Shown: positions 13,027 to 37,815 of the stretch, piece after piece
Layout: each line of letters opens with the position of its first letter
Numbering within the stretch: position 1 is the first letter of the stretch
Origin: Kribbella jejuensis
Lineage (GTDB): Bacteria > Actinomycetota > Actinomycetes > Propionibacteriales > Kribbellaceae
Length of the DNA stretch: 64,000 bases
Assembly (NCBI RefSeq): GCF_006715085.1
Contig: NZ_VFMM01000001.1
Location: 1,612,001 to 1,676,000, forward strand
Direction: 5' to 3'
The notes under the pieces: generated by a model
Seen by the model: only the letters and a program-made list of their open reading frames with translations
Told to the model about the DNA's origin: nothing
The model's database searches: none
Made by a program: the position numbers and the translations under genes

Positions 13027-14253
<1,227 letters not shown>

Positions 14254-25888: not shown

Positions 25889-27196
25889 ATGACAGCCCAG
25901 GTGCCGCACATCCTCGTCGTCGGGGGCGGCTACGTCGGGATGTACACCGCGTACGGCCTGCGCCGGGCCGCCCGTCAGGGCCGGATCCGGGTGACAGTGG
26001 TCGACCCGCGGTCGGTGATGACCTACCAGCCGTTCCTGCCGGAAGCCGCGGCCGGATCGGTGGAGCCGCGGCACGTCGTGGTGCCGCTGCGTAAGACCCT
26101 CAAGGGCTGCCGCGTGGTGACCGGCCGGGTGACCGGTATCGACCACGCCAACAAGGTGGCCCGCGTGATGCCCGAAGAGGGTCCGGAGTACGAGCTCGCC
26201 TACGACCAGATCGTGGTCGCGCTCGGCTCGATCGCCCGTACGCTGCCCATCCCCGGCCTGGCCGAGGAAGCGACCGGGTTCAAGAACGTCGAAGAGGCCA
26301 TTGCCCTGCGCAACAAGGTCCTGGACCGGCTGGACGTTGCCTCGTCCCAGCCCGACCCGGCGCTGCGCAAGTCTGCGCTCACCTTCGTCTTCGTCGGCGG
26401 CGGGTACGCCGGTGTGGAGGCGTTCGCCGAGCTCGAGGACATGGCCCGCTACGCCACCCGGTACTACGACAACATCAAGCCCGAGGACATGCGCTGGGTG
26501 CTCGTCGAGGCCACCGGGCGGATCCTGCCCGAGGTCGGTGACGATCTCGGCAAGTACACCGTGAACGAGCTCCGCAAGCGGAACATGGACATCAAGCTGG
26601 AGACCCGGCTGGAGTCCTGCGAGAAGGGTCACGTGATCCTCAGTGACGGCGACGAGTTCGACGCCGACACGATCGTCTGGACGGCCGGTGTGAAGGCCAA
26701 CCCGGCACTCGCCGCGACGGACTTCCCGCTGGACGAGAAGGGCCGGATCAAGACGCTGCCGAACCTGCGGATCGAGGGCGTCGACGACGCCTGGACCGCC
26801 GGCGACAACGCCGCCGTACCGGACCTGACCAGCGAGACCGGCGCGTTCTGCGCCCCGAACGCGCAGCACGCGGTCCGGCAGGCGCACCGGCTGGCCGCGA
26901 ACATCCTCCGGGTCGTCGACGGGCAGCCGCCGCAGGACTACAAGCACAAGTACGTCGGCTCGGTCGCGAGCCTCGGCCTGCACAAGGGCGTCGCCCAGCT
27001 GTACGGCGTGAAGGTGAAGGGCTGGCTCGCCTGGTTCCTGCACCGGACGTACCACGTGTCCCGCGTGCCTACCCTGAACCGGAAGGCCCGCGTGATCCTG
27101 GACTGGACGCTGGCGCTGTTCTTCCGGCGCGAGGTGACCAGCCTGGGCAGCCTGCAGACCCCGAACGAGGAGTTCCACCGGGCCATTCGGTCCTAG
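25889..27196 (+). CDS. ndh: Type II NADH dehydrogenase (NDH-2)
   Basis: 435 aa single-subunit, non-proton-pumping NADH:quinone oxidoreductase at the inner face of the membrane. The FAD Rossmann motif is VVGGGYVGMYTA at about residues 9-20, the NADH motif FVFVGGGYAGVEAFAE at about 169-184, and a second FAD contact in WTAGDNAAVPD. The C-terminal amphipathic region (KGWLAWFLHRTYHVSRVP then LDWTLALFFRRE) is the usual membrane-docking part. The start is ATG at 25889 with AGGGAGAG 8 nt upstream. Transcription likely starts about 40 nt upstream under Rex-type redox control. A strong terminator follows. Confidence 0.88.
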   Translation: MTAQVPHILVVGGGYVGMYTAYGLRRAARQGRIRVTVVDPRSVMTYQPFLPEAAAGSVEPRHVVVPLRKTLKGCRVVTGRVTGIDHANKVARVMPEEGPEYELAYDQIVVALGSIARTLPIPGLAEEATGFKNVEEAIALRNKVLDRLDVASSQPDPALRKSALTFVFVGGGYAGVEAFAELEDMARYATRYYDNIKPEDMRWVLVEATGRILPEVGDDLGKYTVNELRKRNMDIKLETRLESCEKGHVILSDGDEFDADTIVWTAGVKANPALAATDFPLDEKGRIKTLPNLRIEGVDDAWTAGDNAAVPDLTSETGAFCAPNAQHAVRQAHRLAANILRVVDGQPPQDYKHKYVGSVASLGLHKGVAQLYGVKVKGWLAWFLHRTYHVSRVPTLNRKARVILDWTLALFFRREVTSLGSLQTPNEEFHRAIRS

Positions 27197-27221
27197 GGCA
27201 GTCGTAGCAACACACCTGATC

Positions 27222-27263
27222 GGCCGGGCCTCCAACTCGCCGGGGGCCCGGCCTTCTTTTTCT
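27222..27263 (+). terminator. Rho-independent terminator after ndh
   Basis: GGCCGGGCC and GGCCCGGCC make a perfect 9-bp stem with a 14-nt loop, followed directly by TTCTTTTTCTT. This is the most classical intrinsic terminator in the window; it lies just before the convergent regulator gene. Confidence 0.9.
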
Positions 27264-27268
27264 TCGCG

Positions 27269-27928
27269 CTATTCGTGCAGCAGGTCGGCGTCGTGCACGA
27301 GCAGCGCGATCTGGACGCGGTTGTTCAGGTCGAGCTTGGTCAGGATGCGCGAGACGTGCGTCTTCACGGTCGGCACGCTCAGGTAGAGCGTCGCGCTGAT
27401 CTCGGCGTTCGACTTGCCCTCGCCGACCGCCACGGCGATCTCGCGTTCGCGCTCGTTCAGCTGCGCGAGCCGGGCAACCGCCTTGGACTTGCGGTTGTTC
27501 TGGCCGGTGTCGGCCACCCGGGTGATCAGCCGCTTCGTGACGGCCGGCGACAGGACGGGTTGGCCGGCCGCGATCCGGCGTACCGACTCGACGATTTCCG
27601 CGGGCGGCGTGTCCTTCAGGATGAACCCGGCCGCGCCGGCGCGGAGCGCCCGGAGTACGTGCTCGTCGGCGTCGAACGTGGTGAGGATGACGACCTCGGG
27701 CGCGCCCGGACGGCGGCGTACGGCCTCGGTCGCGGTCAGGCCGTCGGTACCGGGCATCCGGATGTCCATCAGGATCACGTCCGGCGCGAGCCGCTCGATC
27801 AGCCCGTGGATCCCGGACCCGTCGCCGGCCTCGCCGACCACCCGAATGTCCTCGGCGCCGCCCAGCATCAGCTTGAGCCCGGCACGCAGGAGTGGATCGT
27901 CGTCGACGATCAGAACCCGAATGGTCAT
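27269..27928 (-). CDS. NarL/LuxR-type response regulator
   Basis: 219 aa two-component regulator. The receiver domain has the acidic pair IVDDDP near residue 8, phospho-acceptor Asp55 in VILMDIRMPG, Thr in ILTTFDAD and Lys in GFILKD. The C-terminal LuxR HTH includes LNEREREIAVAVGEGKSNAE followed by SVPTVKTHVSRILTKL. The ATG at 27928 overlaps the kinase gene stop (ATGA), so the two are translationally coupled; a GTG three codons earlier is possible. Targets are unknown. Confidence 0.88.
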   Translation of the reverse strand: MTIRVLIVDDDPLLRAGLKLMLGGAEDIRVVGEAGDGSGIHGLIERLAPDVILMDIRMPGTDGLTATEAVRRRPGAPEVVILTTFDADEHVLRALRAGAAGFILKDTPPAEIVESVRRIAAGQPVLSPAVTKRLITRVADTGQNNRKSKAVARLAQLNEREREIAVAVGEGKSNAEISATLYLSVPTVKTHVSRILTKLDLNNRVQIALLVHDADLLHE

Positions 27929-29034
27929 GCGGGCCACGGTAGCCAGGCGTACAGGCGGAACTCCCCGTCGGGGGTGCGGCCGTGTTCGAGCCGGCCGTCG
28001 ACGAGCGCGGCCCGTTCGCTGAGGCCCTTCAGACCTTGGCCGTCGCCGCGGCGGCGGTTCGGTGCCGGGTTCCGTAGTTCGACGGACAATCCGTTGCCCG
28101 GGGCACCGATCACGCTGATCGTGACGGGTTCGCCCGGTGCGTGTTTGACCGCGTTCGTCAGTCCTTCCTGGACGATCCGGTACGCCGTACGCCCGACGTG
28201 CTCGGGCATCGGGCCGGCCGCGTCGAGGGTCAGCTCGACCGGGATCCCCGCCTCGCGCGAACCTGCCACCAGTCCGGGCAGGTCCGAGAACGCCGGCTGC
28301 GGCAGTTCTCCGACGGGCGCCCGCAGTACGCCGATCACCTCGCGCAGGTCCTGCAACGCCTGGTGGGCGCTCGCGCGGATGATCTCCGCCGCGCCGGCCA
28401 CCTCCTCCGTGGACGCGTCCGGGCGGTACGCCAGCGCGCCCGCGTGCACGCTCAGCAGCGACAACCGGTGCCCGAGTACGTCGTGCATCTCACGGGCGAT
28501 CTCCTCCCGCGCCCGGAGCTGCGCCTGCTCGGCCTGCAACGTCGCCACCGTCTCGGCGCGATCGGCCCGGTCGCGCAACGTCTGCAGGAGCTGCCGGCGC
28601 GAGCGGATGTACTGACCCCAGCCGGCGAGTGCGACGTACAGGATGACGGCGATGATGAGCAGCGTCTTCCAGTCCTGCGTGTGCCGGATCCGGACGTAGA
28701 CCACCGTTGCGAACAGGTTTGCCGCGAAGACCCAGATCGACGTCCGCCACGGCTTGTGCACGGCAACGGTCATGATCAGCACGAGCGTCGGCCCGGAAGC
28801 GGCATCGGAGTACATCGAGATGGCCGCGGCGAGCAGCGCGAGCTGGACCGGCCAGCGGCGACGGAACCAGAGCGTCAGGCACAGCGCCATCCCCGACCAG
28901 AAGTCGACGACGAGCAGCGGGTGCGGCACCGGATCGGACCGGCCGTCGGTGTAGGTGAACAGCGCGAGCAGGATCGCGACCACGAACGCGACACTGTCCA
29001 CGACCCAGTCGCGGGTGCTGCGCTTCGGGCTCAT
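27925..29034 (-). CDS. Sensor histidine kinase (NarL-type, HisKA_3)
   Basis: 369 aa membrane kinase. Four or five N-terminal hydrophobic segments (residues about 12-140) with short loops form the sensor. The dimerisation/phosphoacceptor helix is EEIAREMHDVLGHRLSLLS with His184. The HATPase domain has an N-box-like IVQEGLTNAVKHA and the G-box GDGQGLKGLSERAALV. There is no extracellular ligand domain, so it probably senses a membrane or envelope signal. Operon with the response regulator downstream. Confidence 0.88.
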   Translation of the reverse strand: MSPKRSTRDWVVDSVAFVVAILLALFTYTDGRSDPVPHPLLVVDFWSGMALCLTLWFRRRWPVQLALLAAAISMYSDAASGPTLVLIMTVAVHKPWRTSIWVFAANLFATVVYVRIRHTQDWKTLLIIAVILYVALAGWGQYIRSRRQLLQTLRDRADRAETVATLQAEQAQLRAREEIAREMHDVLGHRLSLLSVHAGALAYRPDASTEEVAGAAEIIRASAHQALQDLREVIGVLRAPVGELPQPAFSDLPGLVAGSREAGIPVELTLDAAGPMPEHVGRTAYRIVQEGLTNAVKHAPGEPVTISVIGAPGNGLSVELRNPAPNRRRGDGQGLKGLSERAALVDGRLEHGRTPDGEFRLYAWLPWPA

Positions 29035-29137
29035 GAGACGAATGTAGCGGTGTGTAAGCGTTCTCCGGGGGCTTCGCGGTTGTCCGGATACCGAAGTCGC
29101 GTCCTCGGCTACTTAGGTCGCCCGGTAGGTTTCCGGC

Positions 29138-29644
29138 ATGAGTCAGCTCGCAGTCACCGTCATCGGCCCGGACCGGCCGGGCATCATCGCGGACGTCACC
29201 GAAGCCTTGGCCGGTACCGGGGTCAACCTCGAGGACTCCACGATGACGCTGCTGCGCGGCCACTTCGCGATGATGATCGTCTGCGCCGGACCGTTCGACG
29301 AGGTGAAGTCCGCGCTCGAACCGCTCCGCGGCGAGCTCGTGATCACCGTCCGGAAGATGGGCCCGGAGCACGAGCACGCGCCGATCGGGGCGCCGTACAT
29401 GCTCAGCGTGCACGGCGCAGACCGCCCGGGGATCGTGGCGGCGGTGACCCGGATGATCGCGTCCGCGGGCGGTACCGTCACCGACCTGTCGACCCGGCTG
29501 AGCGGCGGGCTGTACGTCCTGACCGCCGAGGTCGAGCTGCCGCCGTCGGCCGAACTGGACACGCTGAACCGGGCGCTCGAGATCACCGCCGAGGAGCTCG
29601 GCGTGGGCGTGACGCTACGACCGGCGGAGAGCGACGAGCTGTGA
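29138..29644 (+). CDS. Double ACT-domain protein (GcvR-like)
   Basis: 168 aa protein with two ACT domains: residues 1-75 (AVTVIGPDRPGIIADVTEAL) and about 90-165 (MLSVHGADRPGIVAAVTRMI). The D-R-P-G-I loops are the usual amino-acid-binding turns. It resembles the glycine-cleavage repressor GcvR and other regulators of amino-acid metabolism that sense ligands by dimerisation. Its stop overlaps the peptide deformylase GTG start (GTGA), so the two are coupled; the functional link is unclear. Confidence 0.8.
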   Translation: MSQLAVTVIGPDRPGIIADVTEALAGTGVNLEDSTMTLLRGHFAMMIVCAGPFDEVKSALEPLRGELVITVRKMGPEHEHAPIGAPYMLSVHGADRPGIVAAVTRMIASAGGTVTDLSTRLSGGLYVLTAEVELPPSAELDTLNRALEITAEELGVGVTLRPAESDEL

Positions 29645-30183
29645 TCACCGATTGGTCCCCTGCACTGCTGGAGGTCCAGGGCTCGGTGCTGGACGTCGTC
29701 CGCGCACCGCACCCGGTACTCGCGACCGAGAGCGCGCCGGTCGATCCGCTCGACCCGGAGATGATCCAACTCGCCGCCGACCTGATCGCGACCATGCGCG
29801 TCTCCCCCGGCTGCGTCGGCCTCGCCGCGCCGCAGGTCGGAGTCGCGGCGCAGATGTTCTCGCTGGACGTGAGCGGTCACCCGAAGACGCGTACCTGCCA
29901 CGGCGTCTTCGTACTGTGCAACGCGGTCGTCGTCGAGGCCTCCCGCAACGAGAAGGCCCGCGAGGGCTGCATGTCCGTACCGGACTTCACCGGCGACGTG
30001 AAACGCGCAACCCGGCTCACGGTCGCCGGTGTCCTCCCCGGTACGACGGAACAGGTCACGATCACCACCGACGCCTTCGAGGCCCGCGCCCTGCAACACG
30101 AGATCGACCACTGCAACGGCAAACTCTTCCTCGACCGCGTCGCCGGCGCCCACGCCGTGTACCCCCGCAAGACGTACCAGTAA
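29641..30183 (+). CDS. def: Peptide deformylase
   Basis: 180 aa metalloenzyme removing the formyl group from nascent proteins. The three motifs are complete: CVGLAAPQVG (motif 1, about 58-67), EGCMS (motif 2, Cys110 metal ligand) and HEIDHCNG (motif 3, His153 and His157 ligands, Glu154 catalytic). Met rather than Leu in EGCMS and Cys after the second His are mild variations. Start GTG at 29641 overlapping the ACT gene. It may be one of several deformylases, as is common in actinobacteria. It ends 18 bp before a tRNA. Confidence 0.88.
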   Translation: MITDWSPALLEVQGSVLDVVRAPHPVLATESAPVDPLDPEMIQLAADLIATMRVSPGCVGLAAPQVGVAAQMFSLDVSGHPKTRTCHGVFVLCNAVVVEASRNEKAREGCMSVPDFTGDVKRATRLTVAGVLPGTTEQVTITTDAFEARALQHEIDHCNGKLFLDRVAGAHAVYPRKTYQ

Positions 30184-30201
30184 CGTACTCTCGTCCCCGG
30201 A

Positions 30202-30284
30202 GCCCGGGTGGCGGAACGGCAGACGCAGCGAGCTTAAACCTCGCGGCCCTAACAGGCATACGGGTTCGAATCCCGTCCCGGGCA
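30202..30284 (+). tRNA. tRNA-Leu (anticodon UAA)
   Basis: 83-nt cloverleaf. The acceptor arms GCCCGGG/CCCGGGC pair perfectly with discriminator A. The anticodon stem GCGAG/CTCGC encloses the loop CTTAAAC (anticodon TAA), a long class II variable arm follows, and the T arm is ACGGG-TTCGAAT-CCCGT. CCA is not encoded. Its 3' half (30230-30285) is repeated imperfectly at 32418-32472, so it probably served as an integration site. Confidence 0.93.
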
Positions 30285-30285
30285 C
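30230..30285 (+). repeat. Left att-like repeat (3' half of tRNA-Leu)
   Basis: From the anticodon stem to just past the tRNA end. It matches 32418-32472 at about 47 of 57 aligned columns, including the exact stretch TTCGAATCCCGTC and then CGGGCAC. A direct repeat of a tRNA 3' end about 2.2 kb away is the normal footprint of integrase-mediated insertion. Confidence 0.6.
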
Positions 30286-30774
30286 AAACACCCCCCGCAC
30301 GCTCCGCCGGCACTCCGTCGCTCCGCTCCTCCCGCGCCCGCTCCACGCACTCCCACCCACCCCCCGCTTAGCGCGGTCCGTGTGTTCCGGCTGCCGCCGG
30401 GGAGTTGCGGCTACCGCCGCGTATTGCCGGCTGCCGCCGGCGGATTTGCGGGCTTGCGCCCGCGCGTTCCGGGCTACCGCCCGCGAGTTCGCGCTTCCGC
30501 GCGACAAGCCGCCCGTGGCGCGGCGTACCCGACGCGAGGAGGCAACCTAAGCATCGATCCCCGCGCCGTCCACGCAGCGTCACGCCCATCAGATCTGCAA
30601 TGGTCCCACCGACGGCCGCAGCCTCAAGATCACCCCACCCGCTCCATCGCTGCACCATCAACCACCAGGGGCACCGACGCCAAGCCTCCGAACTCTGACA
30701 GCGTCTCCAGGTCTTCAGGACGCGGCCGTCCAGGGCTTGAAAGCCTCCGCGCGCTTGACACCTTGCACGTCAAC
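30285..30774. other. Noncoding stretch downstream of tRNA-Leu
   Basis: 490 bp without a supported gene. 30300-30365 is pyrimidine-rich. 30384-30503 is a run of six mini stem-loops, listed separately. 30504-30774 shows no motif I recognise. Open frames crossing the region change phase relative to the stem-loop units and have no recognisable product. Confidence 0.6.
30384..30503 (+). repeat. Array of six tandem mini stem-loops with compensatory stem changes
   Basis: Six consecutive units spaced 19-22 nt apart. Each consists of RTT or TTT, a 5-6 nt arm, a 4-nt loop of form TNNC, and the exact complement of the arm. Arms are CCGGC/GCCGG (30387-30400), GCGGC/GCCGC (30407-30420), GCCGGC/GCCGGC (30426-30441), GCGGGC/GCCCGC (30448-30463), CGGGC/GCCCG (30470-30483) and CGCGC/GCGCG (30490-30503). 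Loops are TGCC, TACC, TGCC, TTGC, TACC and TTCC. The sequence varies while pairing is kept, as if structure were selected. It starts 100 nt after tRNA-Leu. Function unknown. Confidence 0.65.
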
Positions 30775-31905
30775 TTATGTCCGCCACGAGCCCGCGCGAC
30801 GGAAGAGAACAGTTTTCTGAGAGATTGCGGACAGGGTGTCCTGAAGCATCGGAACGGCTAGCTCTCGGGCAATAGCGTCAAACAAGTATGCCTGCTCTGG
30901 ATGCAGCTGGCTGTCGAACATTTGAGGTTTGTATCGCACCAGGGACGATGCGTAATATGTTAGCGCGTAACGGGCGAAGGCTGGCGGCATTGGGAGCATT
31001 CGAGTCTTATACAGACTGGGTGCGATCCAAGCATCGGAATCTTCAGAACTCTGCGTACCTAGGATGTCATCAATATCGAATATGATTCGGGTGGTAGATA
31101 CTGGAATTGCATTCACGCCTCGAGCGTCAATTTTCCTCAGCGATTCATGAAAGGTTAACGATCGGCTGAATGCGCGACTGAGAGCGAAATGATCCCTCCA
31201 GTCTGGCGGACGCTCGACCTCTTCGAAGTTTCGGGCAAGCAACTTCCGAGTAGCATTGTTGCCGCTCGGAATACCCGGGTCCGCTATCGCGATGAGGGAC
31301 CATGCCTGCTCCGCATCTCTTGCAAGCATTTGGAAGAGCCCAGAGACTTGACAAGTTCCACCGTCTACGGTGCTGAGTTGGGAGGCGATTTCAGGGATCT
31401 GGGTTAGAAGTCTTGCGACTGGCAGTCTTTCACCGATCCGAATTGTCTTGCCAAGGCGTCGTTCGTAGAGTAACCGAAAGATGCCATCCCTCACGATGAG
31501 GGCGTCGCCAGACACTGTCTTCGCCGCGGTTGGACTAAAGCTCAGGCCGTGACCGATCCGCCGATCCACGATATTGCCTGCATGCGTGTCGAGTAGTTCT
31601 GCCTTTGCGAAATTCATCATTGCGTAGTAATAGAGTAGAGCCGCTGATCTGTTCGGAACCAACTGCGCGGCTTGAAAGTTGCTTATCGCCTGTCGGGTGT
31701 AGTTCCGGAATTCACGCCAAAGGGCATTGCGTTCTGCAATTGTTCCGGGGAAACGCGCTCTGCCGACCTTGGCGATTTCAGAGTGCGTGCCGAGCGTCTC
31801 TAGGATGTAGGCAACCGACGCAGATTCGCCGACCGTCATGCCACCGGCGGTCGAAGGTGGGACTAGCACCCAATTCGAGTAAGGCCGAGCAGGACGAATA
31901 GACAT
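30775..31905 (-). CDS. YaaC-like protein, island-borne
   Basis: 376 aa protein of clearly lower GC and different codon use than its neighbours (ATT, AGT, TTT and AAT codons are frequent), pointing to transfer. It resembles the YaaC family: an N-terminal segment ending NRSAALLYYYAMMNFAKAEL (the family's L-L-Y-Y-x-x-x-N-L-A-K motif), a poorly conserved middle, and a C-terminal YALTYYASSLVRYKP block followed by an acidic helix. YaaC proteins are uncharacterised but recur in mobile and defence-rich regions. Start chosen at ATG 31905 with GGAG about 10 nt upstream; a longer frame to 31962 exists. It is the only convincing gene of the tRNA-Leu island. Confidence 0.5.
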   Translation of the reverse strand: MSIRPARPYSNWVLVPPSTAGGMTVGESASVAYILETLGTHSEIAKVGRARFPGTIAERNALWREFRNYTRQAISNFQAAQLVPNRSAALLYYYAMMNFAKAELLDTHAGNIVDRRIGHGLSFSPTAAKTVSGDALIVRDGIFRLLYERRLGKTIRIGERLPVARLLTQIPEIASQLSTVDGGTCQVSGLFQMLARDAEQAWSLIAIADPGIPSGNNATRKLLARNFEEVERPPDWRDHFALSRAFSRSLTFHESLRKIDARGVNAIPVSTTRIIFDIDDILGTQSSEDSDAWIAPSLYKTRMLPMPPAFARYALTYYASSLVRYKPQMFDSQLHPEQAYLFDAIARELAVPMLQDTLSAISQKTVLFRRAGSWRT

Positions 31906-32417
31906 ACCAGGGATGCTCCCAGACTCAGCCGGATGGCGGTAGGCGGGACGACCACTGGCCACGCATCGCGAACAGCCGCTTGGCCAACTCCAGACGCCCC
32001 ATCAATTCCACAGGGACTCCAGCCGGCCGCCTTCGATCGGTGTGTCAGACCGACGAACAGGCGTGATGTGTGCGGCCGATCCAGGCCCTGGGCCTAGCCA
32101 CAACGCGCAACGAGATGGGAAGGGTCGGCACGCCGCCGGGCGCTGGCGGACAAGGAAGATTCTTGGAGCGAATCACCCGCAACAAGTGTGTCCTCAGCCA
32201 ACTCGTCACAACGAGAAGCGGCGAAGATGCCTTGAAGATCAGGGGGTCGGCGCAGCGCGGAGTGATTCGCCGGCAAGCCCCCACCCAAAACATGGAAGAG
32301 GTCGTGGTTGCATCCGCGGTTGCAGCTCAGTCCGGTTCGGGCCAGTTCAGATGGTGCGCAGCGTGCTGGACAAGCGGTGGACGGACGCCGAGGGGCTCCG
32401 GCGGACACCGCCTGATC
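31906..32417. other. Right part of the tRNA-Leu island, no supported gene
   Basis: About 510 bp between the YaaC-like start and the tRNA remnant. Open frames exist on both strands but carry no recognisable motif, RBS or consistent codon bias. No integrase, excisionase or transposase fragment could be seen. The YaaC-like promoter should lie in the first part. Confidence 0.5.
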
Positions 32418-32472
32418 GAATTTAAAACCGCTGCCCTTACAGGTATACGGATTCGAATCCCGTCTCGGGCAC
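32418..32472 (+). repeat. Right att-like repeat (degenerate tRNA-Leu 3' half)
   Basis: Reads like the 3' half of the tRNA at 30202: TTTAAAACC, ACAGGTATACGG, TTCGAATCCCGTC and CGGGCAC. The anticodon stem no longer pairs and no coherent 5' half is present, so it is not a working tRNA. The bases just upstream (GGCGGA near 32399) may be residual D-arm sequence. It ends 2 bp before the J-domain gene stop. Confidence 0.6.
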
Positions 32473-32474
32473 CG

Positions 32475-33089
32475 TTAGCGGAACAGGCCGATGAAGTAGG
32501 CCAGGATCAGGGTGTCGAAGATGAGGGCTAGCCAGGCGAGGGTTTTGCCTCGTTCGCCGTTCCAGCGCATTGCTCTCAGGGCTTGGATGGCGAGGGTTAT
32601 TGAGAGGGGCATGCAGAGGAGAGCGGTGGGGAGGGCGGCGACTGCCTTGGCGTTGATGGGGCGTTTCTGGTTCTGCTCGGTGTAGGGGCCGTGGTACGGC
32701 GGGGCGACGTACGGGTCGGGGATGTCTTGGTAGGTCGGCTGGTACGGCGGATCGTTGTACGGCGGGGCTATGAACGGGTCCGTGTAGGGCGGCTGGTACG
32801 GACCGGTGGACCATTCGAAGGGGTCGGTGGGTGGGTCGTCGGGAGGGGGTTCTGGTGGGCCGTCGAGGAGTTGGGCGTAGGCGGCGCGGCGGGTTGGATT
32901 GGTGAGGATCTCGTAGGCGCGGTTGAGTTTGGCCTGGTGGGAGGGGTCGCCGCCTACGTCGGTGTGGTGGCTGCGGGACAGCTTGCGGTAGCTGCGGCGG
33001 ATTTCGTCGGCGTCGGCGTCGCGGCGTACGCCGAGGAGGGTCCAGGGGTCGGCGCCGTCCAGGTCGCGGAAGTCCCGGCTCGGGTTCAT
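32475..33089 (-). CDS. J-domain-like membrane protein with HTD in place of HPD
   Basis: 204 aa. Residues 10-75 are a J domain: DPWTLLGVRRDADADEIRRS, YRKLSRSHHTDVGG, then LNRAYEILTNPTRRAAYAQLL. The invariant HPD that stimulates DnaK ATPase is HTD here, so classical co-chaperone activity is doubtful. Residues 76-140 are a Pro/Tyr-rich linker with repeated PPY units (PYQPPYTDPF, APPYNDPPYQ, APPYHGPYT). Two C-terminal hydrophobic segments (about 150-172 and 184-203) anchor it. The ATG at 33089 overlaps the upstream gene's stop (ATGA). Partner unknown. Confidence 0.65.
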   Translation of the reverse strand: MNPSRDFRDLDGADPWTLLGVRRDADADEIRRSYRKLSRSHHTDVGGDPSHQAKLNRAYEILTNPTRRAAYAQLLDGPPEPPPDDPPTDPFEWSTGPYQPPYTDPFIAPPYNDPPYQPTYQDIPDPYVAPPYHGPYTEQNQKRPINAKAVAALPTALLCMPLSITLAIQALRAMRWNGERGKTLAWLALIFDTLILAYFIGLFR

Positions 33090-33811
33090 CGAGCGATGTC
33101 CGCCTGGTAGCAGACCAGGTGCCAGGCGGCGTGCTTCGGGTCGGCTCCGGCGGGCAGCGTGCGGTGCCCGGACGCGAACGTGACGGTGCGGTCGCCGGCC
33201 AGGTACAGCCACAGGTTGAGGTCTTCCTCGTTGCCGTAGTAGTACGACCGGTAGTGCTTGATCGGCTGCGACCCGAGGAACGGCGTCTGCAACCGCTGCT
33301 GCGCCTCCAGCGGAAGGTTGCCGAGGACACCGCGCATGTACGAGGTCAGCTCGAGCTGCGGTGCCGCCGGCGGCTGCTCGCCCTTTCCCCGGGACAGCAG
33401 GCGGGTCCGTGGGCGGGTCGGCAACTGCTGTACGACGGCGTGCTTGAGGCTCGACGGTACGAACGCGTCGACGTGTACGGTCTGCGTCCTCTGACCCTGC
33501 TGGTTGACCTTCGGCGTTGTCACGGCGAGCCCGTTCGTGCCGAGGACCACGGCGTACGGGCGGTCGCGCTCACGCTCGTGCCAGTCGGCCCACCACTCGA
33601 CGGCGGGTCCTACCTTGCGCTCGATGTACGCCTTGACGTCGTTGGACAGCTCCGCCCACCAGTGGAACCGGTCCGGTCCCTCGATGAATCCGAGCGACCC
33701 CGCCTCGTGCGCCGCCGGAACGGCCGCTCCCTGTGAGCGCTCAACACCACCAGCAGGCCGCCGCGCGGCCGGGAAGCCCCGAGACTGCTCGGGCAGATTC
33801 TCACGACTCAT
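33086..33811 (-). CDS. Uncharacterised protein coupled to the J-domain gene
   Basis: 241 aa, family not recognised. The first 45 residues are Arg/Pro/Ala-rich and probably disordered. A Trp-rich segment follows (DRFHWWAELSNDVKAY then VEWWADWHERERDRPY), then alternating strands (VVLGTNGLAVTTPKV, RTQTVHVDAFVP) and a C-terminal part with KHYRSYYYGNEEDLNLWLY. There is no signal peptide or membrane span. Its stop overlaps the start of the J-domain gene (ATGA), so the two proteins are made together and may interact. Confidence 0.55.
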   Translation of the reverse strand: MSRENLPEQSRGFPAARRPAGGVERSQGAAVPAAHEAGSLGFIEGPDRFHWWAELSNDVKAYIERKVGPAVEWWADWHERERDRPYAVVLGTNGLAVTTPKVNQQGQRTQTVHVDAFVPSSLKHAVVQQLPTRPRTRLLSRGKGEQPPAAPQLELTSYMRGVLGNLPLEAQQRLQTPFLGSQPIKHYRSYYYGNEEDLNLWLYLAGDRTVTFASGHRTLPAGADPKHAAWHLVCYQADIAR

Positions 33812-33860
33812 GCGCGCCCGTCTGCATAGTGGAGAGCCTCCAACACCGCGGGGGGCACGG

Positions 33861-34706
33861 TCAACTCACCTTCGGCGTACCTGTGGACAACTCCTTCGCC
33901 CGGGTCAGCACAGCGTCGGTCATCGCCTCGGTGAGCTTGCCGGTGAAGGTGTTCTGCTGGCTCGGGTGGAAGCAGCCGAGGACCGTGACCTCGCCGTACG
34001 GCGTCAGGATCCGGTATTCGACGCCGTGCCCGAACTTCGGCCGTGGTCGCGGTACGTCGGCTCCGAGCGCGATCAGTCCCGCGAGCAGAGCGTCGTACCC
34101 GAACTTGCCGAGGCAGATGATCGCGCGGGTGCTGGGGAGTACGAGCTCGAGCTCGCTGCGATACCAAGGAGCACAGGTATCGCGCTCTGATGGCGTCGGT
34201 TTGTTCAAAGGCGGCGCGCAGCGGACGGCCGCGATCATCCGGGTCCGGATCAGCTGCAAGCCGTCGCCCGCATGTTCGCTAGTTGGTTGGTTCGCCAGTC
34301 CGACCCGGTGCAGCGCGGCGAACAGCCAGTCGCCCGAACGGTCACCGGTGAAGACGCGACCGGTCCGGTTCCCGCCGTTCGCGGCCGGGGCGAGACCGAC
34401 GATGAGGATCTCCGGCTCGGCCACGCCCCAGCCCGCGATCGGCCGGCCCCAGTACGGCTGGTCCGCGAACGACTTGCGCTTGCCGACGGCAACATCTTCG
34501 CGCCACTGCACCAACCGCGGACAGGCCCGGCAGACCGACACCCGGGCGTCCAGCTCCGCGAGGTCATCGGTCGCGGCGAGCTCCACGACCTCGCCGGGAT
34601 TGTGCGCCACCGGCGTGTCACTCGCCGCCGGATCCTCCGGCCAGCCCGTCCCCGGCGGCACCGGACTCTCGAACAACTCCCCCGTCAACGGATGCCGCAG
34701 CTTCAT
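33861..34706 (-). CDS. Uracil-DNA glycosylase, family 5 (UdgB-type)
   Basis: 281 aa base-excision repair enzyme. The Fe-S-type start CRACPRLVQWRED is near residue 59. Motif 1 is GLAPAANGGNRTGRVFTGD (about 103-121), in which the usual catalytic acid is replaced by Ala, the hallmark of family 5, together with GDRSGDWLF. The C-terminal motif HPSQQN is present, and further cysteines (MIAAVRCAPP, TCAPWY, IICLGKFG) complete the 4Fe-4S pattern. It removes uracil and some deaminated purines from DNA. It is separated from the downstream hypothetical gene by 49 bp and preceded by a strong hairpin. Confidence 0.82.
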   Translation of the reverse strand: MKLRHPLTGELFESPVPPGTGWPEDPAASDTPVAHNPGEVVELAATDDLAELDARVSVCRACPRLVQWREDVAVGKRKSFADQPYWGRPIAGWGVAEPEILIVGLAPAANGGNRTGRVFTGDRSGDWLFAALHRVGLANQPTSEHAGDGLQLIRTRMIAAVRCAPPLNKPTPSERDTCAPWYRSELELVLPSTRAIICLGKFGYDALLAGLIALGADVPRPRPKFGHGVEYRILTPYGEVTVLGCFHPSQQNTFTGKLTEAMTDAVLTRAKELSTGTPKVS

Positions 34707-34725
34707 CCCACCAGGTTAGTGCGGC

Positions 34726-34773
34726 GGTTGGGGAGGATCGTGCACCCGATTCGGGCGAAAATCCTCCCCAACC
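34726..34773 (-). terminator. Hairpin terminator after the MFS gene
   Basis: GGTTGGGGAGGAT and ATCCTCCCCAACC form a perfect 13-bp stem; the loop contains a smaller CCCGA/TCGGG stem. It lies 8 bp after the MFS stop (minus strand) and 19 bp before the UDG start. Confidence 0.7.
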
Positions 34774-34781
34774 CGGCGCGG

Positions 34782-36209
34782 TCAGGCAGCCAGCTTCTCT
34801 TCGGGGCGGGGGACGACGGTCGGGGGGGACAGCCGCCGGGCAGCCGGGATCGCCAGCGCCAGTACGACGGCCGCGGCGGCGAACGCGGACAGCAGGTAGA
34901 ACGTCGTGGTGAAACCGGCCTCGGTCGGCAGACCTGACCGCTGGACGTGACCGGTGATGATCGAGCTGGCCAGCGCCGTACCGATCGAGCCGCCGATCGT
35001 CCGGATGTTGGCGTTCATGCCGGTGGCCACGCCGGTCTGTTCGCGCGGGACGTTCTGCACGATCAGGCTCGTCATCGCGGCGTACGCCAGGCCGAGCCCG
35101 ACGCCGAACAGCGCGGTCGACAGCGCGACCTGCCACTGCGCGTCGTGGAACCGCGCGAACATCAGCGCCGCGATCAGGATCATCGACGACCCGGACACCA
35201 CCTGCGTCTTCGCGCTGAACCGGGCCGCGAGCGGGCCGCTGAACGAACCGGCGACCGCCATCGTGACCAACATCGGCAGCATCAGTAGACCGGCCTGCGT
35301 CACGCTCGCACCGAAGCCGAACCCGGCCGCCTTCGGGATCTGCAGGAACTGCGGGACGAACGCGTACACCGCGAACATCGCGGCACCGAACAGCAGCGCG
35401 ACCAGGTTCGTGGTCAAGACCGCCGGGCGGCGCATCATCCGCATGTCGATCAGCGGGTTCCGCGACCGGAGCTCGACCGCGATCCAGCCGGCGAACAGTA
35501 CGGCGGCCAGCGCGAACAGTCCCGTCGTACGCAAGGAACCCCAGCCCCACGAGCGGCCGGTGCTCAACGGCAGCAGGAGCGCGATCAGCCATCCGGACAG
35601 GAACGTCGCGGCCAGCCAGTCGATCCGGCCGGGGACGCGGCTCGGGGACTCCGGGACGTAGCGCCGTACCAGCACGGTGGCGATCGCGACCACCGCCATC
35701 GGGATCCAGAACAGCCAGCGCCAGCCGAGCCACTCCACGATCGGGCCGGCGAGCACGATCCCGAGCCCGCCGCCGGCGGCGATGATGGCCGAGACGACGC
35801 CGACCACGGACGGGACACGCTCAGCCGGGAACTCGTCCCGGATGATGCCGAACGAGAGCGGGAACACGGCACCGCCGACGCCCTGGAAGATCCGGGCGGC
35901 GATCAGTACGCCGACGTTCGGCGCGAGGGCCGCGATCAGGCAGCCGATGGCGAGCGCGGCGAGCGCCACGAACAGCGTGCGCTCCTTGCCGGCCATGTCA
36001 CCGATCCGGCCGAGCAGTGGGGTCGCCACGGAGACCGAGAGCAGCAGTGCGGTGAACACCCAGGTGACCGTGCCCGGGGTGGTGTGCAGGTCGTGCTGGA
36101 TGACGGGCAGCGCCGGGCTGACCAGCGACTGCAACATGGAGAACGAGGCAACCACGGTGGCGAGGACCGCCAGCGTCACCCGTGGGTTGCCGGACCTGAT
36201 GACAGGCAT
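34782..36209 (-). CDS. MFS multidrug transporter, 14-TM (EmrB/QacA type)
   Basis: 475 aa membrane protein with about 14 hydrophobic segments. The DHA2 signatures are visible: LGRIGDMAGKERTL after segment 2 and the antiporter motif C-like GLGIVLAGPIVEWLGWRWLF around residue 150. Such pumps export cationic dyes, detergents or antibiotics with proton antiport. It is divergent from a TetR gene with two matching palindromes between them, so it is almost certainly repressed by that regulator. Start ATG at 36209. Confidence 0.82.
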   Translation of the reverse strand: MPVIRSGNPRVTLAVLATVVASFSMLQSLVSPALPVIQHDLHTTPGTVTWVFTALLLSVSVATPLLGRIGDMAGKERTLFVALAALAIGCLIAALAPNVGVLIAARIFQGVGGAVFPLSFGIIRDEFPAERVPSVVGVVSAIIAAGGGLGIVLAGPIVEWLGWRWLFWIPMAVVAIATVLVRRYVPESPSRVPGRIDWLAATFLSGWLIALLLPLSTGRSWGWGSLRTTGLFALAAVLFAGWIAVELRSRNPLIDMRMMRRPAVLTTNLVALLFGAAMFAVYAFVPQFLQIPKAAGFGFGASVTQAGLLMLPMLVTMAVAGSFSGPLAARFSAKTQVVSGSSMILIAALMFARFHDAQWQVALSTALFGVGLGLAYAAMTSLIVQNVPREQTGVATGMNANIRTIGGSIGTALASSIITGHVQRSGLPTEAGFTTTFYLLSAFAAAAVVLALAIPAARRLSPPTVVPRPEEKLAA

Positions 36210-36280
36210 GCGGAAGTTCCTTCGGAACGGGAGGTGCCACGCGCCGGGACCCGGCGCGGATTTCCCCGGCCTGATAAAGT

Positions 36281-36316
36281 CGAGGTATGCCTCCACTATA
36301 ACGGAGGGATGCCTCC
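36281..36316. promoter_or_regulatory. Paired TetR operators between MFS and tetR genes
   Basis: Two 14-bp hyphenated palindromes, CGAGGTATGCCTCC (36281-36294) and GGAGGGATGCCTCC (36303-36316), 22 bp centre to centre (two helical turns). Between them is CTATAAC, whose two strands read TATAAC and TATAGT, both acceptable -10 boxes. The arrangement suggests cooperative repressor binding over both divergent promoters. Confidence 0.7.
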
Positions 36317-36341
36317 GGTACAACCTGGTTAAGGTGAGCAG

Positions 36342-36914
36342 ATGGTGAGCGAGAACAGGCCGGCGTTGCAGGTCGACGTACGGCGGCCGCAGCGGGCGGA
36401 CGCGCGGCGGAACTTCGACGCGCTGCTCGCCGCCGCCCGGGACGCGTTCGCGACCAAGGGCGTGGGGGCGTCACTGGAGGACATCGCCCGCCAGGCCGGT
36501 GTCGGCATCGGCACGCTGTACCGGAACTTCCCGACCCGTCAGGACCTGCTCAACGCGGTCTACTTCGGCGAGATCGAGGAACTGTGCATCGCCGCGGACG
36601 AGGCGGCCGACCTGCCGCCGTGGGAGGCGCTGACGACCTGGTTGCAGCGCTTCGTCGGGTACGCCGCGACCAAGCGCGCGATCTGGGAGTCGCTGAACCG
36701 CGAGGCCGACAGCTTCCAGACGGCACGCGAGGCGATGTACGCGGCCGGTACGCCACTGTTCGAACGCGCCCAGGCGGCGGGCGAGGCGCGCACGGACGTC
36801 TCGTTCGACGACTTGCTGCGAATGGTCAGCGGCCTGACCGCCGCCGGCTTCGTCGACCAGGCCCAGCGTGACCGCGTCCTGGCCATCGCCCTGGACGGCG
36901 TCCGCGCTAGGTGA
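36342..36914 (+). CDS. TetR-family regulator of the adjacent MFS pump
   Basis: 190 aa. The HTH covers about residues 10-60: RRNFDALLAAARDAFATKG, SLEDIARQAGVGIGTLYRNF, then PTRQDLLNAVY. The R-A-D-A-R-R-N start and the compact C-terminal domain fit the subgroup that controls divergent drug exporters. AAGGTGAG precedes the ATG. The 3' end overlaps the convergent ppx gene by 8 bp. The inducer is unknown. Confidence 0.85.
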   Translation: MVSENRPALQVDVRRPQRADARRNFDALLAAARDAFATKGVGASLEDIARQAGVGIGTLYRNFPTRQDLLNAVYFGEIEELCIAADEAADLPPWEALTTWLQRFVGYAATKRAIWESLNREADSFQTAREAMYAAGTPLFERAQAAGEARTDVSFDDLLRMVSGLTAAGFVDQAQRDRVLAIALDGVRAR

Positions 36915-37815
36915 GGGAGAGGGCGACTCCGTCGAGGATGTCGTGTTCGGAGACCGTGAGGGTTTCGATCGGGAGGCGGTCGACCAGGCGTTGGAGGATG
37001 AGGGCGCCGGCGCCGATCACGTCGACTCTGCCGGGGTGGATGGAGTGGACCTTGGCGCGGTCCTCGTGGGTCGACTCGGTCAGCCAGGTGGTGGTGGCGC
37101 GGAGTTGAGCCTTGGTGAGGCGGGCGTGGTGTACGGCGGTTCGGTCGTACTCGGGGAGGTCGAGGGCTACCGCGGCGACGGTGGTGGCGGTGCCGGCTAC
37201 CGCGATCAGGGCGCGGGCTTCGGGCAGTGGGACTGTGGTGGTGTCGAGCAGGGCGTCGATGTCGTGGGTGATGGCCGCAAGCTCGTCTACGGACGTCGGG
37301 TCGGTCGTGACGTGGCGTTCGGTCAGGCGTACCGAACCAATGTCGAGAGACTGGGCCGCTCGGACGCCGGTCGCGTCGCCGAGGACCAGTTCGGTGGAAC
37401 CGCCGCCGATGTCTGTCACCAGGTACGGCGCTGGGAGGTCCAAGGCGGCGGTGGCGCCGCGGAAGCTGAGCTCGGCTTCCTCCTCACCGGAGATGATTTC
37501 CGGTCGTACGCCGAGGCGCTGTTCGATGCCGTCGAGGAAGGCGTCGCGGTTGCTGACGTCCCGGGCGGCGGAGGTCGCGACGAAGCGGATCCGGCTGACG
37601 GCCTGGGACTGAACAACAGCCGCGAAGTCCTCAGCAGCCTTGAACACCCGCGCCAGTGCCTCCGGCGCGAACGCACCCGTCGCATCCACACCCTGCCCAA
37701 GCCGCACGATCGTCATCCGACGATCCACCTCGACCAGTTGACCGTCGGCCAGGTCCGCAATCAGCAGACGGATCGAGTTCGTCCCACAGTCGATTGCGGC
37801 GACGCGGTCAGACAC
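36907..37815 (-). CDS. ppx: Exopolyphosphatase/guanosine pentaphosphatase (Ppx/GppA)
   Basis: 302 aa member of the ASKHA phosphotransferase fold, the short actinobacterial form. Motifs are AAIDCGTNSIRLLIAD (phosphate 1, residues 6-21), RFVATSAARDVSNRD, ISGEEEAELSFRGA (catalytic Glu) and LVTDIGGGSTEL (phosphate 2). It hydrolyses polyphosphate or pppGpp, linking phosphate storage to the stringent response. Start GTG at 37815 overlaps the DUF501 gene stop by 8 bp, so it is the last gene of the eno-ftsB-DUF501-ppx operon. Confidence 0.88.
   Translation of the reverse strand: MSDRVAAIDCGTNSIRLLIADLADGQLVEVDRRMTIVRLGQGVDATGAFAPEALARVFKAAEDFAAVVQSQAVSRIRFVATSAARDVSNRDAFLDGIEQRLGVRPEIISGEEEAELSFRGATAALDLPAPYLVTDIGGGSTELVLGDATGVRAAQSLDIGSVRLTERHVTTDPTSVDELAAITHDIDALLDTTTVPLPEARALIAVAGTATTVAAVALDLPEYDRTAVHHARLTKAQLRATTTWLTESTHEDRAKVHSIHPGRVDVIGAGALILQRLVDRLPIETLTVSEHDILDGVALSLT

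Follow-up and report, generated by a model that had tools for sequence, protein, structure and literature searches.

The window analysed here is a stretch of 64,000 nucleotides from Kribbella jejuensis, part of a 7.5-Mb genome in 4 contigs (G000), and the locus of interest within it runs from a tRNA-Leu(UAA) gene, through a segment of about 2.2 kb, to an imperfect copy of the 3' half of the same tRNA and a DnaJ-type gene of the host flank. The features, in order along the window, are the following:

30202..30285, + strand: tRNA-Leu(UAA), whose 3' half serves as left attachment core (attL) (ARAGORN; Rfam)
30280..30503, no strand assigned: dispersed genomic repeat, where the attL arm would be expected (33 other matches in its own genome)
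30695..30745, + strand: remnant of the 5' end of a structured module (score 29, next best 14.5; nhmmer --max E 1.1e-4)
30747..30774, + strand: remnant of the 3' end of the module (score 18.5, the best in the window, next 14.5)
30775..31905, - strand: cargo gene of the YaaC family (PF14175), 376 aa from the ATG at 31905 (open frame to 31962)
32306..32324, + strand: attR arm site, a GGTTGCA-N5-GGTTGCA direct pair that begins 166 bp short of the right core's end
32416..32472, + strand: right attachment core (attR), a drifted copy of the tRNA 3' half (local alignment)
32475..33089, - strand: DnaJ-type gene of the host flank (start uncertain; open frame to 33212), which lies next to the tRNA in genomes G013 and G014

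According to ARAGORN, tRNA-Leu(UAA) is the sole tRNA in the window, and Rfam concurs for positions 26000-37000. An earlier sequence-only reading had described the repeat of its 3' half as identical in about 47 of 57 columns, and the local alignment, in which 48 of 56 aligned bases are identical and one internal gap occurs, confirmed it. The score of this copy is 33.5; the runners-up in the window reach 12 (+ strand) and 13 (- strand), and the highest score among 200 simulated sequences of 64 kb is 16.5. The lower GC content attributed to the intervening segment was also found, at 0.52-0.63 over most of its length versus 0.67-0.72 in the flanks. The right copy is not a second tRNA gene, as had been proposed for checking, given that its 5' half is missing; neither ARAGORN nor Rfam returns a tRNA there, and this candidate was rejected.

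The drift of the right copy had been read as the mark of an old insertion. Over its last 51 bases, 44 match the tRNA of the same genome, with 6 mismatches and gaps, and the corresponding count is 51/51 in G003, in the first element of G004, and in G017. One T-stem pair is broken in the window copy, which upholds the claim as far as decay is concerned. As a measure of age, on the other hand, drift is weakened by G010 (L049) and G016 (L055), where the variable arm of the right copy is unlike that of the tRNA, a difference that probably came with the element, which would have carried a tRNA 3' half of its own. In these two genomes, integration may have replaced the 3' half of the tRNA, variable arm included.

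Empty sites, arm sites and complete relatives

With the tRNA as the query, the tRNA-Leu(UAA) gene was found in all 38 genomes of the genus, and it is identical in 9 of them. The site was fetched from 37 (G022, which lies at a contig end, was omitted, and a contig end also limits the G011 stretch to 780 bp). The 3' half recurs downstream of this tRNA in 14 of the 38 genomes, i.e., that of the window, G003, G004 (twice), G008, G010, G016, G017, G018, G023, G027, G032, G036, G037, and G033, in the last case on a separate contig with a probably adjoining end. Scores are low for G023 and G036 (weak copies, 25.5 each) and for G018 (a partial copy, 26), and the islands measure from 0.5 to 12.9 kb up to the last copy. 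Two further arrangements were observed, one in G006 (L045), where the tRNA-Leu(UAA) has the reverse orientation with respect to peptide deformylase, the gene located before it in the window, and the other in G032 (L077; contig 7, approximately 300493-300546), where a tRNA-Leu copy resembling attR, its right arm nearly normal, lies away from the tRNA-Leu(UAA) locus.

An empty site that joins the tRNA to the right flank, which the earlier reading had named as a check, is present in G013 and G014. The stop of the DnaJ-type gene lies 3 and 7 bp after the tRNA in these genomes, and begins 2 bp past the right copy in the window. When the window tRNA was joined to positions 32473-33172 and compared locally with G013 and G014, identity over the aligned positions of the window was 79% and 78%. 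The same comparison is less clean in G019 (78%, with some 100 bp that differ beside the tRNA) and in G026 (67%), and G007 and G030 lack the DnaJ gene, the next one downstream coming directly after the tRNA.

Larger elements that share the core and encode an integrase, also sought at the suggestion of that reading, were found in G003 and, across two contigs, in G033. The G003 element has 12.9 kb and encodes a tyrosine integrase of 418 aa (Pfam PF00589) beside the tRNA, and its further genes match those of G033, which carries the same set. From their translations, we take these genes to be a replication initiator, an FtsK-type transfer gene, and a GntR regulator. Intact integrases (PF00589) are found at 2 of the 37 sites, those of G003 and G033, and integrase fragments at five others (G017, G018, G023, G032, and G034). 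The G033 AICE and the window segment share 70% identity over their right-hand 200 bp or so.

The right repeat is an attachment site, given the GGTTGCA-N5-GGTTGCA pair 166 bp before its end. This pair starts 164-168 bp before the core end in 10 of the 16 right copies of the genus, window included (the weak copies L047, L057, L061, L065, and L074 were left out of the sliding alignment of right arms). On the left side, the octamer TGACCTGC is found some 9-10 bp after the tRNA and a DGTTGCA-N5-DGTTGCA pair 63-67 bp after it; the left pair is present at 9 of the 37 sites, and again after the first right copy of G004, where it belongs to a second element. In G003, the left pair is present and the exact octamer is absent. 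The geometry, which had been described as that of integrase-mediated insertion, is supported by the empty sites, by the larger elements with the same core and an integrase, and by the arm sites at a fixed distance.

A simulation of 2 Mb with the composition of the locus produced zero matches to the arm pair. Genome-wide, the GTTGCA pair was matched 55 times in the 38 genomes versus 81 times for its reversed control, and it was rejected as a genome-wide marker of attachment sites, being rarer than the control; the informative feature of the pair is its fixed position, not its occurrence. The window's own genome has three matches, and the two outside the window flank a complete AICE (L089; contig 1, 2622500-2640500), inserted in tRNA-Thr(CGT) with a perfect 47-bp repeat, one pair being 60 bp past the tRNA and the other 160 bp from the right end. 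The integrase of this element is the nearest one in the genome, and is 45-49% identical to those of the tRNA-Leu elements. The pair is shared by tRNA-Leu and tRNA-Thr elements, and it is therefore common to integrases with different cores; it is a putative integrase binding site.

The structured module and the cargo slot

The two remnants at 30695-30774 are the ends of a non-coding module of approximately 430 nt, which is found in 27 of the 38 genomes of the genus at E <= 1e-10, and some 370 nt are missing between them in the window. The score of the 5' remnant (29) lies above the maximum of 21 obtained in 150 simulation runs. A scan of the window with the full module missed this remnant at E 0.1 with nhmmer; it was revealed by positions 30506-30774 alone, and was then clear window-wide.

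The alignment of 30 copies (A3), which include L043:421-883, L043:2900-3334, L042:12602-13049, and L089:4109-4530 together with 26 more, folds better than its column-shuffled versions (z -6.9), and its reverse strand does so more strongly (z -10.9; -102 vs -68 kcal/mol in the shuffled alignments), these z values being distinct from probabilities, as the shuffles preserve the classes of conservation and not relatedness. At least two double changes were found in 9 of 63 pairs. At E <= 1e-5, a 90-nt core of the module is present in 17 of 394 genomes of the class, distributed over nine genera, its own included. In Rfam, no match to the module was found at E <= 0.5 in L042, L043, L089, and L056, besides the tRNA and one chance-like tRNA match. 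A second AICE-like gene set of the window's own genome (L106; contig 1, 3918000-3933000) also carries a copy of the module, and the integrase search of this genome returned no related integrase beside it. The two intact module copies of this genome are located on contig 1, at 2626608 and 3925371.

The module may be a single-strand origin, a transfer site, a 3' RNA of the cargo, or a recombination platform. A possible analogue is sso1 of ICEBs1, a non-coding sequence in a rolling-circle ICE, in the part of the description available (PMC4595007). The module differs from it in lying beside the cargo and in folding more strongly on the cargo strand, which may mean another role.

The position next to the module is a cargo slot with a fixed orientation. 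An opposite-strand open reading frame of at least 150 aa ends at the module (from -30 to +60 of the module end) in 20 of 32 copies, compared with 107 of 1280 random places (8%) drawn from the same sequences. The slot of G003 is empty, the module ending at 13049 and the arm pair lying at 13058. When 17 of the 20 abutting genes, that of the window included, were scanned with PADLOC, which comprises both candidate and proven systems (L060, L126, and L131 were left out), eight matched at E <= 1e-10. These matches are as follows:

L043: PDC-S58, ApeA-type
L061: RmrA
L091, L122, and L123: SduA
L118: SoFic
L124: PDC-M68B
L127: PD_DExK/NucC-type

Pfam concurs on ApeA, SduA, Fic, and M78. The copies surveyed were found by their similarity to the G004 module, so that the counts include shared ancestry, and three of the eight defence matches are Shedu. 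At the same threshold, no match was obtained for the other nine genes (the window, the second element of L043, L075, L076, L117, L119, L125, L134, and L135). Three further slots (L056, L089, and L092), whose gene is not an abutting opposite-strand one, were scanned as well and gave no match. A small control of 10 chromosomal genes of the window gave no match at E <= 0.001. The L126 gene had zero matches in a Pfam scan. In the second G004 element, whose slot holds two genes, a membrane protein that shares 68% identity with the L117 cargo has a weak LeoBC match (E 2.3e-5). The membrane proteins encoded at L043:3989-4963 and L117:147-1073 are 68% identical, a recurrent slot cargo in two genomes, and the slots of L076, L125, and L135 hold membrane-type proteins without a match, which are candidates for unnamed defence genes. 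A DUF6338 membrane protein occupies the slot of the tRNA-Thr AICE.

A variable cargo position, often with defence genes, is also a property of the defence hotspots described for mobile elements, Tn7-like cargo among them, in what was available of their description (PMC8649781). Measured against that text, the slot described here differs in being bounded by a structured non-coding module and an attR arm within AICE-derived elements, and in carrying, for the most part, one gene or two with a fixed orientation. No account of such a slot or of tRNA-Leu AICEs in this genus was found in open-licence papers, and the module-bounded cargo slot is new as far as that literature shows. The island itself is an ordinary decayed element, and the recurrent slot, with its conserved structured marker, is of more use. 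If it is a defence slot, the module may serve as a handle for finding one-gene defence systems, with the YaaC protein and the unnamed membrane proteins among the candidates.

A bolder proposal, which we regard as less likely than not, is that the module and the adjacent opposite-strand gene form a defence cassette in which the cargo transcript would enter the reverse complement of the module, which has the more stable fold, so that the module would act as a functional 3' RNA or a recombination platform, and in which YaaC would be a new single-gene defence protein. If true, AICEs and small integrase-less satellites would be swapping one-gene defence systems, and the other unnamed slot genes would be candidates as well.

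The YaaC gene of the window

The cargo gene of the window matches Pfam PF14175 over residues 84-356 (E 4.2e-16, 59.7 bits, cut-off 27), its start having been chosen through comparison with L084, and its stop abuts the end of the module on the opposite strand. It was found in one of 97 genomes, i.e., its own, 37 of the others being of the same genus. The nearest relative found, from Cellulomonas sp. SG140, is 59-60% identical and lies in a stretch of lower GC. The differences between the two are highest at third codon positions (0.65 vs 0.35 and 0.25), and the gene appears to have been under constraint at the protein level since the split. The family is rare in the class, with 4 of 394 genomes.

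The YaaC protein matched no family in PADLOC at E <= 1, none in NCBIfam, and nothing in phages, plasmids, and viral contigs, and a profile search of solved structures returned none below E 0.07. On the question of a HEPN-type fold, the AlphaFold model is too poor to be of use (mean pLDDT 36.7, pTM 0.28). In the searchable literature, a link of YaaC to function, defence, or HEPN returned only unrelated uses of the letters.

A defence role may be proposed by analogy with the other genes of the slot and the company kept by YaaC genes elsewhere. In L096, the neighbour is an AbiEii-type gene; in L094, an ImmA/IrrE-type (M78) gene with RmrA and capP matches; and in L095, a large AAA_16-type ATPase gene beside tRNA-Met. 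The neighbours in these three genomes of the class also include GHKL or AAA_16 ATPase genes. A reading to which we would give somewhat less than an even chance is that YaaC is an ordinary or selfish cargo and that the defence matches of the sister slots reflect the general enrichment of islands in defence genes, as would fit the nine of 17 scanned slot genes without a strong PADLOC match and the lack of any YaaC function in the searchable literature; the AbiEii-, ImmA/IrrE-, and AAA_16-type neighbours of L096, L094, and L095 speak against it.

State and origin of the window copy

On the left side of the window copy, where the attL arm would be expected, a motif scan of 30280-30503 found neither TGACCTGC nor the GTTGCA pair, and this stretch is a dispersed repeat, not sequence of the element. 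It is GC-rich, with many short hairpins, and occurs as well just past the tRNA-Leu of several further genomes and, in G003, past attR.

The claim that no integrase is left in the island was borne out, down to the level of remnants, as none was found in 30286-32421 by a search that recovered remnants in the controls L057, L070, and L072. The other AICE proteins (from L042 and L071) were also absent from the island, the best tblastn match outside the flanks having E 0.003 and phmmer returning zero. The sequence-only reading had left two alternatives, a decayed element or a non-autonomous one mobilised in trans, and the findings fall on the side of decay, with the attL arm gone, the module short of some 370 nt, and the integrase remnant undetectable. 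The window copy is a decayed AICE remnant, a deletion derivative that keeps only its right end, given the absence of the attL arm, of AICE proteins, and of integrase remnants; it is probably not mobilisable today.

In the portions available of PMC3218068 and PMC9513070, AICEs of the pSAM2 kind have a tyrosine integrase by the tRNA, replication-initiator-like and FtsK-like genes, and a GntR regulator, and integration at tRNA 3' ends, accretion of several elements at one site, and remnants are described. The window shows one AICE trait, site-specific insertion at the 3' end of a tRNA, flanked by direct repeats; the integrase, the replication initiator, and the FtsK/Tra-type transfer gene are all absent, which sets the copy apart from the elements described there. 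The sole tRNA-Leu group named in the accessible text of PMC3218068 consists of Mycobacterium elements with serine recombinases, and Kribbella is absent from that text. The copy resembles a CIME, as outlined in the available part of PMC5704250, in the loss of integration and transfer genes at the integration site, and the tandem accretion described there recurs in G004. A CIME keeps both attL and attR, whereas the window copy retains the attR core and arm and the attL core (the tRNA), and its attL arm is absent. It is an AICE remnant near a CIME, and its kind is already known, AICE remnants and accretion being in print in these same three sources, as far as their available text goes (PMC3218068, PMC9513070, PMC5704250).

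The decay of an AICE in place, combined with recurrent host-useful cargo of an antiviral kind, is our overall explanation, with a probability of about 0.82. An AICE-kind element with a tyrosine integrase would have integrated into the 3' half of tRNA-Leu(UAA). The integrase gene and those for replication and transfer would then have disappeared, along with the attL arm and the module interior, which would leave a right end made up of the module ends, one cargo gene, the attR arm, and the attR core. In the intact sisters, the paired GTTGCA arm sites presumably serve for integrase binding, and recombination would take place at a core that extends from the anticodon loop to the 3' end. Cargo between the module and the attR arm may be exchanged between elements, and the YaaC-family protein would most likely be a host-useful gene of an antiviral kind.

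Alternatively, the window copy may have been integrase-less from the start, as a satellite, or an element of CIME-like type, that an AICE integrase inserted in trans, which we consider a tenable reading, albeit at odds a little short of even. Small elements with both arms and without an intact integrase do exist, i.e., the tandem pair of G004 (2.48 and 2.44 kb) and the 1.33-kb element of G010, with G017 likewise, which has an integrase fragment. The two G004 elements share a derived junction of the left arm with the module and have different cargo, which suggests that this layout moved after the loss of the integrase, and the window keeps the same order of module, opposite-strand cargo, and attR. 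Against this, the attL arm of the window has been lost, so the copy cannot reveal its ancestor, and the G004 pair could also have arisen by tandem duplication with a later exchange of cargo. Another explanation would be that ordinary recombination duplicated part of the tRNA by chance around an unrelated gene, which would fit the absent integrase. This reading is so improbable that it is refuted for practical purposes, given an arm site where one would be expected, the remnant of the module, a right arm with 70% identity to an AICE's, the empty sites in relatives, and 13 other genomes of the same geometry.

Decay in place probably accounts for the window copy, and the G004 elements are a case in which the movement of integrase-less carriers of defence genes can be tested. 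These two elements (L043:292-5214) lie in tandem without an integrase, have alike ends, and carry ApeA-type and membrane-protein cargo. They are 87.7% identical over 567 bp at the junction of left arm and module and 81% identical over the last 168 bp, and the shared junction with different cargo, as read from these sequences, speaks for the possible movement of integrase-less forms. A third TGACCTGC is found at position 5223 of L043, after the tandem, as in an array of att-flanked cassettes.
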